Source of the DNA: an uncultured Faecalibacterium sp.
GTDB taxonomy: Bacteria > Bacillota > Clostridia > Oscillospirales > Ruminococcaceae
Direction: 5' to 3'
Length of the DNA stretch: 39,554 bases
NCBI GenBank assembly: GCA_934561485.1
Contig: CAKTGS010000009.1
Span: 1-39,554 of the forward strand
In this document: piece by piece, positions 5,407 to 36,838 of the stretch
Layout of the letters: each line of letters begins with the position of its first letter
Numbering within the stretch: position 1 is the stretch's first letter
Made by a program: the position numbers and the translations under genes
Notes under the pieces: generated by a model
Databases searched by the model: none
The model's input: the letters and a program-made list of their open reading frames with translations, nothing else
Told to the model about the DNA's origin: nothing

Positions 5407-5931
5407 ATGCAGCTTTCGGAAACCGAACGCGAACAGCTTTACAGCATTGTGGAACAGTACGACCGGAACCCTGAGGTGCAGCAGATGCGGGAATTTATCC
5501 AGCATGGCTCGGTCACGACCTACCAGCACTGCAAAAATGTGGTGATCGTCAGCTTCTGGCTGAACCGGCGGCTGCATCTGCACGCCGATGAGACCTCGCT
5601 GGCAGTGGGCGCTTTTCTGCACGATTTTTATCTGTACGACTGGCACAAGAAAAGCACCTTCCACGGCCTGCGCCGTCTGTTTGAAATGCACGGCTTTTCG
5701 CACCCGCGCTTTGCCTGTGTCAATGCCGAGCGGGTATTCCACATCACCAAAAAAGAACAGAACATCATTGCAAGCCACATGTGGCCGCTGACCTTCCGCC
5801 ATGTGCCCAGCTGCCGCGAAGCGTTCATTGTCTGCCTGGCCGACAAATACTGTGCCGTGGTGGAAAGCATGTTCCGCCGCAGCCGTGTGGCGGCCGCCAA
5901 AACCGCAGACGGCGAGGATGCCGAGTGGTAA
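5407..5931 (+). CDS. HD-domain phosphohydrolase-like protein
   Basis: Cytoplasmic protein of 174 residues with an HD-type metal site: TTYQHCKNV (first His), GAFLHDFYLYDWH (HD pair), a His in ASHMWP, and a downstream Asp in LADKYCAVVES. This is the order seen in HD hydrolases that act on nucleotides or cyclic nucleotides; the substrate here is unknown. The start at 5407 has AAAGGA 9 nt upstream; a GTG at 5389 is an alternative that lacks a ribosome site. It is the second gene after the 146-residue protein and is closed by a strong shared terminator. Confidence 0.8.
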   Translation: MQLSETEREQLYSIVEQYDRNPEVQQMREFIQHGSVTTYQHCKNVVIVSFWLNRRLHLHADETSLAVGAFLHDFYLYDWHKKSTFHGLRRLFEMHGFSHPRFACVNAERVFHITKKEQNIIASHMWPLTFRHVPSCREAFIVCLADKYCAVVESMFRRSRVAAAKTADGEDAEW

Positions 5932-5938
5932 ATATCCA

Positions 5939-5985
5939 AACAAGAAAAGAGGAACAGCCCGCGGGGCTGTTCCTCTTTTCTTGTT
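5939..5985. terminator. Bidirectional terminator between convergent genes
   Basis: A 22-bp perfect stem (5939-5960 with 5964-5985) with a 3-nt loop. A-rich 5' and T-rich 3' flanks let it act on both strands. The stop codon of the acetyltransferase begins at the next base. Confidence 0.9.
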
Positions 5986-6504
5986 TTACAGCTTTTTGTA
6001 GCCTTCCGGCTCATCCGCTTTGGCGCGGCGCTCCATCAGGTAGGTGTCCAGCCAGCGGCCATGGCAGTCGCGGGCAATGCGCTCCCGCCGCCCCACCAGC
6101 CGGAAACCGCACTTGGTGTGCAGCGCAAGGCTGGCGGCATTGTCCTGCAGCACGGTGGACTGCAGGGTCCAGTATCCCTGCCGCTCGGCTTCGGCGCACA
6201 GGGCGCTCAGCAGCTGGCAGCCCAGCCCGTGCCCACGGAACCGCTCTCCTACGTAAATGCTCACCTCGGCCACGCCCCGGTAACACCAGCGCGGATCTAC
6301 CCGGTGCAAAGCGGCCCAGCCGGCCAGCACGCCGTCTGCCAAGATCACCAGACGGCATTCCTTGGTGTGAGATGCGTCCCACGCCGTGTAGGGCGGGCAG
6401 TCGGTCTGAAAGGTGGCATACTCGGTGGCAATGCCTTCCAGATAGATCCGGGAAACCACACCCCAGTCCTCCGGCTCCATGGGCCGGATCATACTCTCAC
6501 TCAT
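5986..6504 (-). CDS. GNAT N-acetyltransferase, phosphinothricin-acetyltransferase-like
   Basis: 172-residue acetyl-CoA-dependent N-acetyltransferase. It starts MSESMIRPMEPEDWGVVSRI and shows the Pat/Bar-type layout: IATEYATFQTD and a core GVAEVSIYVGERFRGHGLG containing the acetyl-CoA P-loop (R-x-x-G-x-G), then VLQDNAASLALHTKCGFR and GRWLDTYLMER near the end. Relatives acetylate phosphinothricin, methionine sulfoximine or similar amines, but many family members have unknown substrates. The start is preceded by GGGGATGG; a start at residue 5 is possible. It is a single minus-strand gene with its own promoter. Confidence 0.85.
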   Translation of the reverse strand: MSESMIRPMEPEDWGVVSRIYLEGIATEYATFQTDCPPYTAWDASHTKECRLVILADGVLAGWAALHRVDPRWCYRGVAEVSIYVGERFRGHGLGCQLLSALCAEAERQGYWTLQSTVLQDNAASLALHTKCGFRLVGRRERIARDCHGRWLDTYLMERRAKADEPEGYKKL

Positions 6505-11780: not shown

Positions 11781-12101
11781 GGCAGTCCAACGGGGAGCTT
11801 TCCCCGCAAATGGAGTCCGGAACCCACGGTATTCCCCTTTTTGTCGCTTGCGCGACATCTTCCCCCGACCGGGGGAAGTCTTTGCCCCAGTGCTGCGCAC
11901 CGGGGCCCCACTTCTCTGGACATTTGCTTGGGAAACTCCCCGCCAGACTGCCGGATAGCTGTATCTGCCCGGGGCTGTGGGCCGGGAGTTTTTCCGAGAA
12001 TGATCCGGCGGGTGGGCCCCTGCTGCCGTAGGCAGTAGGGCGGGCAATGGAATGGCCCGTTACATTCGCGGAAAAAGCTACCAGCACACAGCCCAACTGC
12101 C
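11781..12101 (+). repeat. Twin-hairpin intergenic element, copy A
   Basis: Non-coding stretch that fills the gap between rmuC and fprA. Hairpin I: 11791-11812 pairs with 11921-11942 (CGGGGAG, TTTCCC and GCAAATG against CATTTGC, GGGAAA and CTCCCCG), extended by GGCAGT (11781-11786) with ACTGCC (11947-11952). Inside are further stem-loops (CTTCCCCC/GGGGGAAG; GCCCC..GTGC/GCAC..GGGGC). Hairpin II: GGGCTGTG (11972-11979), TTTTTCCG (11989-11996) and GAATG pair with CATTC, CGGAAAAA (12069-12076) and CACAGCCC (12087-12094). Its interior has CCCTGCTGCC/GGCAGTAGGG and CGGGCAATGGAATGGCCCG. The core matches copy B at 34210-34471. Two copies share sequence mainly in loops and the AGYTTTYYCC/GGRRAAA stem parts. 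Confidence 0.85.
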
Positions 12102-26067: not shown

Positions 26068-27990
26068 ATGAGACAACAACCGGAAAAACAGCCGCTTACT
26101 TCCATGCAGAAGCAGGCCGTGCTGGTTTGCATCATCTGTGCATTGGCAGCGCTGCTCACGGTGGGCATCACGCTGACACTGATCCAGCGCGGCAAGGGAA
26201 CCGGGCTTCCCGCGGAACAGCCCGGCAGTGAGGATACTTCGGGCGTGGAGGACATTTCGGGCCATTATCAGATCAACGAAACGTCCAGCGCCCTGCTGAC
26301 CGAGACAGCAGACGCAGGGGAGAGCTATCAGAATGAGACTCTTTTCATTGGCGATTCCAACACGGTGCGCCTGTATGCCAATGGCCTGATCTCGCTGCAG
26401 CAGTTCTGCGCCAAGGAGGGCATTGGCACCCATGCGGCCCTCAATGACGGCATTGTGACCTTCAAGCGGGACACCAACCGCTACACCATTGCACAGGCGG
26501 TGGCAAAAATGAAGCCCCGCCGCGTGGTTGTTATGCTGGGTACCAACGATACCGGCATGGAAACTGCCGACTTTATTGCCAACTACACCGCACTGATCCA
26601 GGCCATTCAGGCCAGCTACCCGTACACAGATATCATTGTGAACACGGTGCCCCCGGTGCCGGCAAATCACGCCAATTATCCGCAAATGGATCAGACCAAG
26701 ATCGATGATTTCAACATGGCACTGCTGTCCATGTGTGAGCAGATGGGCCTGAAGTTCCTCAACACCGCTGAGGCTCTCAAGGACTCCACCGGCTATGGCA
26801 ATGCCGATTACTATCTGACCAACGACATCCACCTGAAGCCTGCCGGACTGAAGGTGCTGCTGAACTATCTGCGCACCCATGTGTATCAGACGGAGGACCG
26901 CCGCCCGGATACGGCCAACATCCCCACCCGCGCGGAGTACACTTCCACCCCTAGCTCTGCTGTGGCTGCGCCCAGCAGCTCGGAAGCGGCATCCTCTTCG
27001 GCGGCAGAAGAGCAGCCTGCGGACACGGCCCCGGCTGTGGAATATCAGGCCAGCTACCGTGTGGACAAAACCGGCGGCGGCAGCCTGAGCGCCGGCAGTG
27101 AAAGCGGCAAGAGCGCACTGGCTTATAACATTACCAGTGCGGCACAGTCCGTCAGCGTGACGGCGGTGCCGGATACAGGCTATGTATTCGTCAAGTGGAG
27201 CGATGGCGTGACCCAAAAGACCCGCACGGATACGGACTTCAAGCAGAATCTGGATGTAACGGCTGTGTTTGCGGCTGCATCGGTGCATGTGGCCGGGGAC
27301 GGACGCGCGGTCGTGGGCGGCCAATATACCTTCCGGGCAAAGCTCAGCGGCAAGTATCTGGACGCCAGCAGCATCCACTGGTATGCCAACGGCGCTGAGG
27401 TGACCGCTGCCGCAGGGCAGACCGCGGTAACGGTTCCCATCACGGCGGAAATGCAGGGCACCGCCTTTAAAGTATATGCTGTGGCATCCTACAATGACTG
27501 CCGTGTATCCAGCAACACGCTGGAAGTCACGGTGGCCGGTGCCCCTGCCAGCAGCACCAGCCCGGCTTCTTCGGGCAGCACTTCCGGAGCATCCTCCGGA
27601 ACTACATCCGCTTCTTCTGAAGAAACAAGCTCTTCCAACGGAACGGCAGCCAGCGGCTCTCACAGCACGGCCAGCAGTTCCGGTTCTGCGGCCAGCGGCT
27701 CTCACAGCACGGCCAGCAGTTCCGGTTCTGCGGCCAGCAGCTCTCATAGTACGTCCGGCAGCAATGCAGAGAGCGCTTCCGGTACTTCGCACAGCACCAG
27801 CAGCGCGGAGAGCTCTTCTCATAGTTCGGGCAGCGTGAGCAGTTCGCACAGCAGTTCCGGTACGGCAGGGGAAGCTGCGGCTTCCAGCACCTCGCACAGC
27901 AGCAGCGCAGCGGCCAGCAGTTCCCATGCATCGTCCGCTGCTTCTGCAGAGCAGGGTGCCAGCCGCGAAGCTGCTTCGTCTGCTTCCTGA
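26068..27990 (+). CDS. Membrane-anchored SGNH/GDSL hydrolase with Ser-rich tail
   Basis: 640 residues. Residues 20-43 form a single membrane anchor. The SGNH domain (about 85-270) has block I FIGDSNTVRL with Ser97, block III GTND with Asn160, and block V LTNDIHLKPAG with Asp253 and His255, so it is likely an extracellular esterase acting on a cell-wall or polysaccharide acetyl group. Then follow a Ser/Ala linker, a beta-repeat resembling divergent InlB B-repeats (ending TGYVFVKWSDG...LDVTAVF), an Ig-like domain to about 490, and a low-complexity Ser/Ala/Gly tail with regular HS motifs. No LPXTG motif is seen at the end. The start is uncertain between 26056 and 26068; the latter has better spacing to AAGGA. 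Confidence 0.85.
   Translation: MRQQPEKQPLTSMQKQAVLVCIICALAALLTVGITLTLIQRGKGTGLPAEQPGSEDTSGVEDISGHYQINETSSALLTETADAGESYQNETLFIGDSNTVRLYANGLISLQQFCAKEGIGTHAALNDGIVTFKRDTNRYTIAQAVAKMKPRRVVVMLGTNDTGMETADFIANYTALIQAIQASYPYTDIIVNTVPPVPANHANYPQMDQTKIDDFNMALLSMCEQMGLKFLNTAEALKDSTGYGNADYYLTNDIHLKPAGLKVLLNYLRTHVYQTEDRRPDTANIPTRAEYTSTPSSAVAAPSSSEAASSSAAEEQPADTAPAVEYQASYRVDKTGGGSLSAGSESGKSALAYNITSAAQSVSVTAVPDTGYVFVKWSDGVTQKTRTDTDFKQNLDVTAVFAAASVHVAGDGRAVVGGQYTFRAKLSGKYLDASSIHWYANGAEVTAAAGQTAVTVPITAEMQGTAFKVYAVASYNDCRVSSNTLEVTVAGAPASSTSPASSGSTSGASSGTTSASSEETSSSNGTAASGSHSTASSSGSAASGSHSTASSSGSAASSSHSTSGSNAESASGTSHSTSSAESSSHSSGSVSSSHSSSGTAGEAAASSTSHSSSAAASSSHASSAASAEQGASREAASSAS
27649..27732 (+). repeat. 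Two tandem 42-nt repeats in the SGNH hydrolase tail
   Basis: Two identical or nearly identical 42-nt units, encoding ASGSHSTASSSGSA twice, followed by a partial third unit. They extend a tail built of SSS/HST motifs. Such repeats can vary in number between strains. Confidence 0.85.
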
Positions 27991-31737: not shown

Positions 31738-34200
31738 ATGTCTGAAAAAGTTACGATCAAGGCAGAGCGCCGTGCGCTGCATCTGCCCACCATCGCCCTG
31801 CGCGGGCTGGTCGTTTTTCCCAACAACCTGGTCCATTTTGAGGTGGGCCGCGAAAAGAGCATTGCTGCCGTGGAGTGGGCAATGGCCAACAATTCCAATG
31901 TGTTCCTGGTAGCACAGAAGGAAATGGAGACCAGCGACCCCACCCAGCAGGATCTGTATGCCTACGGCGTTGTGGCCGAGGTCAAGCAGGTGCTGCGCGT
32001 CTCGGACGACCTGGTCAAGGTGCTGGTGGAGGGCAAATACCGTGCAAAGCTGACGGAGCTGGATGCATCCGGCGATTTTCTGCTGGCACAGGTGCGCCCG
32101 GCCCCGGTGCGGGCCGCAAAACCGGAAGAAGCCGTGGAAACCGAAGCACTGCTGCGTGCCCTGAAGAGCGGCTTTGACGAATATCTTGGCATGAACCCGC
32201 GCCTGGCAAAGGATGTGGTGTTTGCCATTGTGTCCAGCGATGACCCGGTATACCTGAGCGAATACATGCCGGCCAACCTGCTGTTCCGCTATGAGGACAA
32301 GCAGGCGGTGATGAATGAGAACACCCTCAATGGTCGTCTGCAGCGCCTGGTGGAGATGCTGCAGCGCGAGTGCCAGGTGATGAAGATCGAAAAGGAGATC
32401 GCGGACAAGGTCAACGAGTCCATGGACAAAAACCAGCGCGATTACTACCTGCACGAGCAGCTGCACATCATCAGCGATGAGCTGGGCGAGGGGGACGATA
32501 CCCACGCCGAAGCAGACGAGTACCGCCGCAAGATCACGGCACTGCATCTGGCCGAGGACAGCGAGAAAAAGCTGCTCAAAGAGGTGGACCGTCTGTCCAA
32601 GATGCAGGGCAGCAACCAGGAAGCCACGGTCATCCGCACCTATCTGGACACCTGCCTGGACCTGCCCTGGAACAACTTTACCGTAGACGATCTGGACATC
32701 AGCCGTGCCCAGCAAATTCTGGACCGCGACCACTACGGCCTGAAAAAGGTGAAGGACCGCATTCTGGAAACGCTGGCTGTGCGCAAGCTGGCACCGGACG
32801 TCAAGGCGCAGATCATCTGCCTGGTCGGCCCTCCGGGCGTTGGCAAAACCAGCATTGCACGCTCCATCGCCGAAAGCCTGGGCCGCAAGTACGTGCGCAT
32901 CAGCCTGGGCGGCGTGCGGGATGAAGCCGAGATCCGCGGCCACCGCCGCACCTACATCGGTGCCATGCCCGGTAAGATCATCAATGCCATGATCACCGCC
33001 AAAACGTCCAATCCCCTCATGCTGCTGGACGAGATCGACAAGCTGGCAGGGGATTTCCGAGGCGACCCGGCAGCAGCTCTGCTGGAAGCGTTGGACCCGG
33101 AGCAGAACGGCACCTTCAACGATCACTTCATCGACATCCCGTTTGATCTGAGCCATGTGCTCTTTATCACCACGGCAAACGATCTGGGCAGCATTCCCGG
33201 CCCCCTGCGTGACCGCATGGACGTCATTGAGCTGCCCAGCTACACCCGTGTGGAAAAATACAACATTGCCCGCAAGCACCTGCTGCCCAAGCAGCTCAAG
33301 GCCTGCGGCCTGACCGGCAAGGTCACCCTGAGCCAGAGTGCCCTTTACGGCATCATTGACGGTTATACCCGTGAAGCCGGCGTGCGCAACCTGGAGCGCA
33401 CCATTACCAGTGTGCTGCGCAAGTGTGCCCGCAAGATCGCATCCGGCGAGACGGAAAGTGTGTCTGTTACCGGCACCATGCTGGAAGAACTGCTTGGCCC
33501 CCGCTTTGTCAAGCCGGACTTCCTCAACCGCACCAATGCCATCGGCATTGCCAACGGCCTGGCCTGGACCAGTGTGGGCGGCGAGACCCTGCCCATTGAG
33601 GTGCAGGTCATTGACAACGGCAGCGGCAAGATCACGGTCACCGGTTCGCTGGGCGATGTGATGAAGGAAAGCGCCCAGCTGGCCATCACCTGGGTGCGCG
33701 TTCACGCTGCGGAATATGACATCGACCCCGAGCGGCTCAAGAAGTGCGACCTGCACATCCACGCTCCGGAGGGCGCAGTGCCCAAGGACGGCCCTTCCGC
33801 CGGTGTTACCCTGACCACGGCTCTGGTGTCCTGCCTGTCTGGCATTCCGGTGCGCGGTGATGTGGCCATGACCGGTGAGATCACCCTGCATGGCAACGTA
33901 CTGCCCATTGGCGGCCTGCGCGAAAAGAGCATGGCGGCTTACCGCGAGGGCATGAAAACCGTGCTGATCCCCAAGGACAACGAACCGGACCTGTACGAAG
34001 TGGACGAAGAAGTGAAGAAGAACCTGACCTTCCTGCCCATGGCCAACCTGACCCAGGTGCTGAACGCTGCCCTGCTCAAGCCGCAGAACACTAAAAAGGC
34101 AAAGGCACCGGCCAGCCGCACGCACGCAAAGAAGAAACCGGCAGAGAACGCCATTGTTCCGCCTGCAGCCGATAAGCAGCAGCCCGGCGCAGTGTGTTAA
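31738..34200 (+). CDS. lon: ATP-dependent protease Lon
   Basis: 820 residues, close to the usual LonA length. An N-terminal LON substrate-binding domain ([17 protein letters not shown] near residue 15), a coiled-coil linker, an AAA+ module with Walker A GPPGVGKT (364-371) and Walker [10 protein letters not shown], and a C-terminal serine protease domain with Ser687 (KDGPSAGV) and Lys730 ([10 protein letters not shown]) are all present. It degrades misfolded and selected regulatory proteins in the cytoplasm. GGGAGGTG lies 9 nt upstream of the start. It is followed by a structured repeat and then engB; the lon-engB pair is also adjacent in Bacillus. Confidence 0.97.
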
Positions 34201-34209
34201 GGGAACGTT

Positions 34210-34471
34210 GGCCAGCAGATAGCTTTCTCCGCGAATAGCCCGGGACTCCAGTCCCGCCCCAACGCTCACGCGCCGGGGCCCCACCCCCAGGACATTCGCT
34301 GGAGAAACTATCTGCTGGCCTGTCGTGAAGAATGCATCTATTCGGGCCGCGGGTTGGAGGTTTCTCCAAAGACCGTCCGCTGGGGTGGGACCCTGTTGCC
34401 CGCAGGGCAATAGGGCGGGCGATGGAATGGCCCGTATCGTGTCTGAGGAGAAAGCTTCCAATCCGCGGCCC
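34210..34471 (+). repeat. Twin-hairpin intergenic element, copy B
   Basis: Fills the gap between lon and engB. Hairpin I: GGCCAGCAGATAG (34210-34222), TTTCTCC and GCGAAT pair with ATTCGC (34294-34299), GGAGAAA and CTATCTGCTGGCC (34308-34320), a 26-bp stem with single-base bulges. Hairpin II: 34344-34367 (GGGCCGCGGGTTGGAGG then TTTCTCC) pairs with 34447-34471. Interior features are CCCTGTTGCCC/GGGCAATAGGG and CGGGCGATGGAATGGCCCG, both shared with copy A at 11781-12101. No promoter is visible between it and engB, so it is probably part of the lon-engB mRNA. Confidence 0.87.
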
Positions 34472-34500
34472 TTCATACACAGAACAGAAAGGAAAGCTCC

Positions 34501-36770: not shown

Positions 36771-36791
36771 GGCACCATGGAATACAAAAAG

Positions 36792-36838
36792 CAGCCCCGG
36801 CAGGGGAGCGCACGCCGCTCAACTGCCGGGGCTGTTTT
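36792..36838. terminator. Terminator shared by hslO and yqfD
   Basis: CAGCCCCGGCAG (36792-36803) pairs perfectly with CTGCCGGGGCTG (36823-36834), followed by TTTT. AAAAA precedes it, so it works on both strands. The 3' arm lies inside the last codons of yqfD. Confidence 0.88.

Follow-up and report, generated by a model that had tools for sequence, protein, structure and literature searches.

Dispersed palindromic repeats in a Faecalibacterium clade, probably maintained by template switching and a strand-specific fold

In this study, a stretch of 39,554 nucleotides from an uncultured Faecalibacterium sp. (contig CAKTGS010000009.1 of assembly GCA_934561485.1, positions 1 to 39,554; hereafter the window) was investigated for two hairpin-rich regions, copy A (11781-12101) and copy B (34210-34471), together with their relatives in other genomes. 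We consider that they represent a new type of dispersed palindromic repeat, which is probably maintained by template switching together with a strand-specific fold. Comparison of the sequences reveals copies restricted to a clade, pairing of the arms that flank each core, opposite core orientations at one and the same site, and empty sites that are free of any palindrome. In the mechanism that we propose, polymerase template switching between the two arms would be mainly responsible for keeping them complementary (arm homogenisation), the same template switching would flip the core (spacer inversion), and a strand-specific single-strand fold, of RNA or of single-stranded DNA (ssDNA), would be constrained in addition. 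Structure in an RNA is customarily demonstrated through compensatory base changes, and here paired changes resembling RNA evolution may also stem from a DNA-copying mechanism. About 100 natural replicates display the compensatory pattern together with in-place spacer inversion, the mark of DNA template switching, so that the two causes become separable within one organism. Should individual copies be under selection as well, Faecalibacterium, one of the major commensals of the human gut, would have an undescribed class of structured intergenic elements.

The first-pass annotation had regarded each copy as a twin of about 300 nt. BLAST and pattern searches split this twin into single elements that mostly occur alone, as adjacent pairs were seen only twice in a census list of 109 places, in addition to the two in the window; among the fetched stretches of faecal scaffolds, L001 carries hairpin I alone and L002-L007 carry hairpin II alone or part of it. 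The unit is one element, about 120 nt in whole length, with a core of about 90-98 nt within copy-specific self-complementary arms of about 11-14 bp. Elements I and II are reverse-complement homologues, a feature missed at first, and on one strand both read AGCTTT..hairpin..hairpin..CCCACC..AAACT. Near the arms, the inner AGCTTT/AAACT part alone is conserved and the remaining arm sequence is copy-specific; in L002-L006, where both ends are present, the outer arms pair with each other and are unlike from copy to copy. A second dispersed family, repeat N (about 105-115 nt, CGGGTTGCGGCACCCAGC...GGCGGCGGTCGTTG), frequently sits nested next to the first inner hairpin, and a rough motif test placed 24 distinct hits inside an element and eight elsewhere, three of which proved on reading to be inside as well. 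Examples are L006 220-324, L088 1280-1374, L126 3186-3280, L017 7466-7578 and L156; repeat N was also seen alone and apparently within another repeat (L126, L156). Three hybrids (L218, L220 and L224, at G031:C1:348618, 427248 and 838114) have an outer helix and a first inner hairpin like those of element I together with a second inner hairpin like that of element II, which gives the impression of recombining modules.

With a covariance model, the kind of check that the annotation had proposed, here built from 66 copies, 109 places were found in 14 of the 31 Faecalibacterium genomes (2-24 per genome, most in G002), so that the outcome of no further copies in relatives did not occur. The carriers are exactly the 14 genomes whose EngB is 89-97% identical to that of the window; among the 17 non-carriers, 14 have an EngB of 70-83% identity, and in the remaining three no EngB passed the limit applied. 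Of 247 genomes sampled across the family, which were searched with stricter filters than the genus census, at the cost of weak matches, 245 gave no match, and the two matching genomes, G001 and G008, were already in the genus set. In the genome collection, a 22-base pattern matched 35 stretches, every one titled Faecalibacterium, and among the genomes searched the family is restricted to one Faecalibacterium clade. There was no match to copy B, used alone as query, in plasmid sequences, no exact match to a 26-base core pattern in viral contigs, and no match to the core in E. coli. Carriage by phages or plasmids was set aside on these empty plasmid and viral-contig searches, and the apparent 'phage' hits fall on faecal scaffolds that are neither annotated nor verified and probably represent host DNA. 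When 102 copies were compared with rough open reading frame (ORF) calls, 36 lay inside long ORFs, some of which seem spurious, being antisense in DNA of high G+C content, and a further 12 lacked a flanking ORF; the family consists of dispersed and mostly intergenic palindromic repeats, a description that may not hold for those 36.

Inversion of the core in place between species was observed in four comparisons at three orthologous sites, with cores 98-100% identical. At site Y the core lies one way in G005 and G004 and the opposite way in G003 and G020, between common arms (AGAACGGCTGAC/GTCAGCCGTTCT) and common flanks, and between G005 and G003 the 98-nt core is 100% identical with flanks at 94.5 and 95.3%; G004 also contains a nested repeat at this site, and the spacer of G010 holds a copy with other arms. 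Site X, compared in seven species, is inverted in G003 relative to G004 and G005 (G003 versus G004: core 97.9%, flanks 91.0 and 96.4%) and in G031 relative to G001 (core 100%, flanks 93.3 and 95.3%), and at the L008 site G001 is inverted relative to G031, with a core of 98.0% identity and partly different arms. Simple counting suggests at least four inversion events, and since the bulged base moves with the core, the exchange would have taken place within the arms or at the arm-core border. Two or more copies are present in 21 site groups; both orientations occur in 10 of these, three of which (the two window groups and L013) are inflated by same-locus twins, and inversion was measured at sites Y, X and L008 only. 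The arms of G003, G004, G001, G031, G007 and G011 at site X are unlike one another and mostly still complementary. Both marks by which template switching is recognised were found, namely arms altered together at one orthologous site (X) and spacer inversion (Y, X and L008).

Some orthologous sites are empty. The L008 site contains neither element nor palindrome in G030 (flanks 99.4 and 95.8% identical to G001) and G002, and site Y consists of short spacers without a palindrome in G002, G006, G007, G008 and G018, and of about 275 nt of other sequence in G001, G030 and G031. Therefore, the arms either arrive with the element or are made with it. No target duplication is evident at these two sites, and the insertion edges there are not clean. 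Another palindromic repeat (CCCTCTCAGTC...GACTGAGAGGG, plus a similar one) was noticed in the same intergenic spots of sister genomes, at L090 and L092 (between lon and engB in G030 and G031) and L167 (site Y, G011).

Arms are far more complementary to their own partner than to permuted ones. After six loci had been dropped, 69 distinct arm pairs gave an own-partner complementarity score of 18.7 against 8.5 (standard deviation 0.49) for permuted partners, the best of 10,000 permutations reaching 10.9; the right arm of the same copy was the single best partner in 28 of 69 cases (median rank 1), a share kept down because many copies have arm types in common. For the structural analysis, 79 unique copies were kept and 30 clusters dropped (missing end or locus edge, many with nested repeat N), and the 66-copy alignment comprises 61 of the 79 and five re-anchored rows, with N-bearing, truncated and three near-duplicate rows excluded. 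From these 66, the 32 element-II copies that are nearly gap-free in the outer helix were picked, which favours clean pairing, and on them a 42-pair structure had 94.6% of its cells paired, compared with 84.2% after shuffling and 37-49% when slid. In 20 of the 42 pairs both sides are altered (147 cells), and none of 500 shuffles reached any of five covariation measures, kinship among the copies being left in. The covariation lies in the arms, the outer helix and one inner hairpin, where pair 53-67 is U-A in 23 copies and C-G in nine, and pair 54-66 is U-A in 27, C-G in four and unpaired in one; the inner hairpin of columns 73-91 does not vary and is thus uninformative on covariation, while unpaired stretches are invariant or nearly so. 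The annotation had named covariation no greater than shared ancestry explains as a ground for rejecting its claim, and this was not the outcome of either the permutation or the shuffle test, although both leave relatedness in, for which reason their figures are not probabilities. Covariation beyond column composition, as expected of a structured non-coding RNA, is present and cannot separate selection from template switching.

A preference for one strand was also observed. Counted on the strand that is '+' for element II in the window, and inflated by shared ancestry, the non-Watson-Crick cells of the 32 copies number 75 G.T/T.G, 22 G.A/A.G, 15 A.C/C.A and 10 C.T/T.C; the same classes number 53, 6, 3 and 1 in the inner columns, where 31 of the 53 come from one fixed column, without which the G.T type stands at 22 versus 3 for the A.C type. 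On the same strand, the wider arm set has 65 G.T versus 31 of the A.C type, and 54 G.A versus 4 of the C.T type. All three elements folded were more stable on the proposed strand, both as RNA and as DNA; as RNA, 34206-34324 gave -81.9 kcal/mol on the reverse strand versus -68.7, and 34345-34471 gave -84.0 on the + strand versus -66.1. Given the mismatch asymmetry and the stabler fold, it is likely that this strand is the one that folds, whether as RNA or as ssDNA, and that the core forms a multibranch hairpin on it. At site X, the core of G004 is 94-98% identical to those of G001, G031 or G011, and that of G007 is 87.5-91% identical to the other six; in distant pairs the core stands at 88-98% against 69-81% for the aligned flanks. 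This slow core reflects either selection on individual copies or homogenisation by conversion, and the features apparently shared within a site would favour selection at the level of the copy. Because most of the persisting mismatches are of the kinds that this strand tolerates, and because the core is slow at an old site, our data suggest that the single-strand fold is constrained besides template switching. Relative to co-directional flanking genes, 12 copies have the same and 14 the opposite orientation by rough ORF calls, the 36 copies inside long ORFs and the 12 without a flanking ORF being left out. Relative to replication, there is a weak bias: across eight genomes, 43 of 64 copies lie the same way (p = 0.008, shared sites uncorrected). 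It is suggestive only, since the count is dominated by G001 and G030, whose sites may be shared. A conserved linker, [TA]GCATCT, was rejected as too weak, with counts beside 103 copies of 3+5 downstream and 0+6 upstream versus 0+2 and 2+3 at a distance.

In two papers, template switching is reported to homogenise short inverted-repeat arms and to invert their spacers, reversibly (PMC8604942), and to fit compensatory changes of several bases, as well as inverted loops, in RNA genes (PMC8794818). Arm homogenisation with spacer inversion is thus a signature of template switching, and covariation alone is no proof of RNA selection. The annotation had left a choice between selection on RNA structure and a repeat maintained by a structure-dependent process; the latter is more directly supported by the in-place inversion with complementary arms kept, while of the former, selection on a fold also finds support in the strand-asymmetric mismatches and the conserved core, and an RNA embedded in messenger RNA does not, given the orientations toward genes. 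Several points weigh against template switching with a strand-specific fold. Published inverted spacers are very short, with changes of 2-5 bp (PMC8604942, as far as consulted), and inverted loops of RNA genes are mostly 4, some 7-8 nt (PMC8794818, likewise); the spacer here is about 98 nt, so that the inversion could be the work of a recombinase or of some other mechanism. The arms are not fully homogenised: internal mismatches persist, as does the bulge in AGCTTT/AAACT, and only in the 28 of 69 cases given above does the right arm of a copy rank as its single best partner. The excess of G.T over A.C is not predicted by template switching and could arise by strand-specific cytosine deamination, gene conversion among copies could mimic core constraint, the structure test was made on a selected clean subset (32 of 66), and the copies are non-independent through inheritance, so that shuffles overstate significance. 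A bolder proposal, on which we remain doubtful, is that each copy would be a functional strand-specific fold of RNA or ssDNA, selected at its site across species, with a private arm pair that may take any sequence provided that it pairs, and with an orientation switch. Such a copy would be an invertible structural module of the chromosome, distinct both from selfish repeats in decay and from riboregulators of the ordinary kind.

It is also conceivable, if rather unlikely, that the repeats are a family of structured non-coding RNAs, transcribed copies in which selection on RNA pairing alone keeps arms and stems complementary. Such a family would account for the covariation, the nearly invariant unpaired stretches, the G.U-type mismatches prevailing on the better-folding strand, and the slow core of site X, but not for the absence of an orientation bias relative to co-directional genes, nor for cores whose orientation to their neighbours is opposite in different species. 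Another candidate is a non-autonomous ssDNA transposon (REP/RAYT- or IS200/IS605-like), in which a Y1 transposase would recognise and move the folded strand, bulge and mismatches included. The strand-asymmetric fold, the conserved bulge, the multicopy intergenic spread and the uncorrected replication bias speak for it; yet Y1_Tnp is unmatched in 7 of 14 carriers (G006, G007, G008, G011, G018, G020 and G030), G002, the richest in copies, has only a fragmentary Y1 match, and the GTAG/GGAG-like letters before the left core end sit in a paired arm, which makes this explanation very unlikely in our judgement. A Y1/RAYT driver was rejected, since its presence does not track the element and four element-free genomes also match Y1.

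The element might instead resemble a miniature inverted-repeat transposable element (MITE) whose terminal repeats, the arms, evolve fast, and which is moved by a DDE or other transposase that escaped detection. This is consistent with the dispersal, the accompanying nested repeats, and presence versus absence in the close species G001 and G030 at the L008 site. We hold it to be highly improbable, as the interior is conserved and the outer ends are variable, the reverse of the usual MITE pattern of conserved ends and a variable interior, and as no clear target duplication was seen at the two sites read, where the insertion edges are not clean; no longer copy with an ORF was noticed among the copies, in the course of searches not aimed at one. 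That many copies have arms of their own might also be explained if the element inserted into pre-existing hairpins and took its arms from the target, but the chance of this is minimal, the idea being largely refuted at the two sites examined by the palindrome-free empty orthologues at Y (G002, G006, G007, G008, G018) and L008 (G030, G002).

With reference to known families, a search of the whole window against Rfam returned one tRNA only at gathering score, and 34200-34480 (copy B) gave five sub-threshold hits (E 0.27-4.9, far under gathering scores), two of which share a microRNA model while the rest fall on three different models; the mir-3199 hit spans both elements, presumably reflecting the inverted homology of I and II. 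No description of the family was found in the open-access literature searched, which is a part of the whole literature. The element resembles REP and MITE-like repeats in kind and fails the defining features of both where tested. Like the REP/BIME repeats of TnpA_REP (RAYT), it is intergenic, multicopy and imperfectly palindromic, with strand-specific irregularities and inverted unit pairs. It differs in its conserved core and unconserved arms, and in place of a 20-50-nt palindrome after a GTAG-like tetranucleotide, the unit is about 120 nt, the base before AG varies and this position lies in a paired arm; the Y1 transposase expected in a genome with REP is unmatched in half of the carriers. 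ERIC and RU elements, which are MITE-like intergenic repeats, are similar in size, intergenic position, long imperfect palindromes and inserted modules, whereas the Faecalibacterium element has copy-specific outer arms in place of terminal inverted repeats conserved across copies, a conserved interior, and both core orientations at one site. In the small hairpin-flanked inversions of chloroplast genomes, a segment between short inverted repeats flips as it does here; those are single loci and this is a multicopy family. Template-switch quasipalindromes, a mechanism and not a family, have arm homogenisation and spacer inversion in common with it (PMC8604942), and the Faecalibacterium repeats are distinguished as a dispersed family with a conserved, structured spacer of about 98 nt.

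Copies A and B are present in the window as the annotation described, with a mean column identity of 76% when aligned. Folded as RNA with short flanks, copy A had z = -7.1 (0 of 100 shuffles as good) and copy B z = -9.3 (0 of 200). The motif CGGGCNATGGAATGGCCCG occurs exactly twice in the window, and allowing up to three mismatches it has three matches versus 0.06 expected by chance. The claim that the outer arms differ between the copies and yet pair within each could be read directly from both sequences, those of copy B being 13 bp (GGCCAGCAGATAG/CTATCTGCTGGCC) and those of copy A GGCAGTC..CGGGGAG/CTCCCCG..GACTGCC. The upstream stop codons were likewise located, as the RmuC-family gene (ORF end 11770) lies 10 nt from A and lon (ORF end 34200) 9 nt from B; downstream are an ODP-family/flavoprotein-like gene and the YihA/YsxC (EngB) GTPase gene.

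Element I of copy A spans 11781-11952 on the - strand, the presumed folding strand assigned by homology, with its core at 11796-11937 including a nested repeat and arms GGCAGTC..CGGGG / CCCCG..GACTGCC. The nested short repeat, overlooked at first, lies at about 11832-11886 (+) between the inner hairpins and is unrelated to the element and distinct from repeat N; stretches resembling it are found elsewhere, outside this element, and related pieces were seen in L030, L044, L077 and L220. Element II of copy A occupies 11972-12094 (+), a core at 11987-12079 flanked by 15 nt of arm sequence on either side. In copy B, element I lies at 34210-34320 (-; core 34221-34309, arms GGCCAGCAGAT / ATCTGCTGGCC) and element II at 34345-34470 (+; core 34359-34456, arms GGCCGCGGGTTGGA / TCCAATCCGCGGCC). 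The pair noted as C-G in A and T-A in B falls in the inner hairpin CCCTGTTGCCC/GGGCAATAGGG at 34391-34415 (+) of the latter, and both forms occur among the 32 aligned copies; the adjoining inner hairpin CGGGC-GATGGAATG-GCCCG at 34416-34434 (+) is nearly invariant among them. Elsewhere in the window, a perfect 23-bp inverted repeat with a 3-nt gap at 5938-5986, just past an ORF end at 5931, is possibly a bidirectional terminator, a T-ended 23-bp inverted repeat of 87% complementarity at 36788-36838 is terminator-like, and three 42-nt direct repeats at 27639-27764 lie within a serine-rich reading frame.
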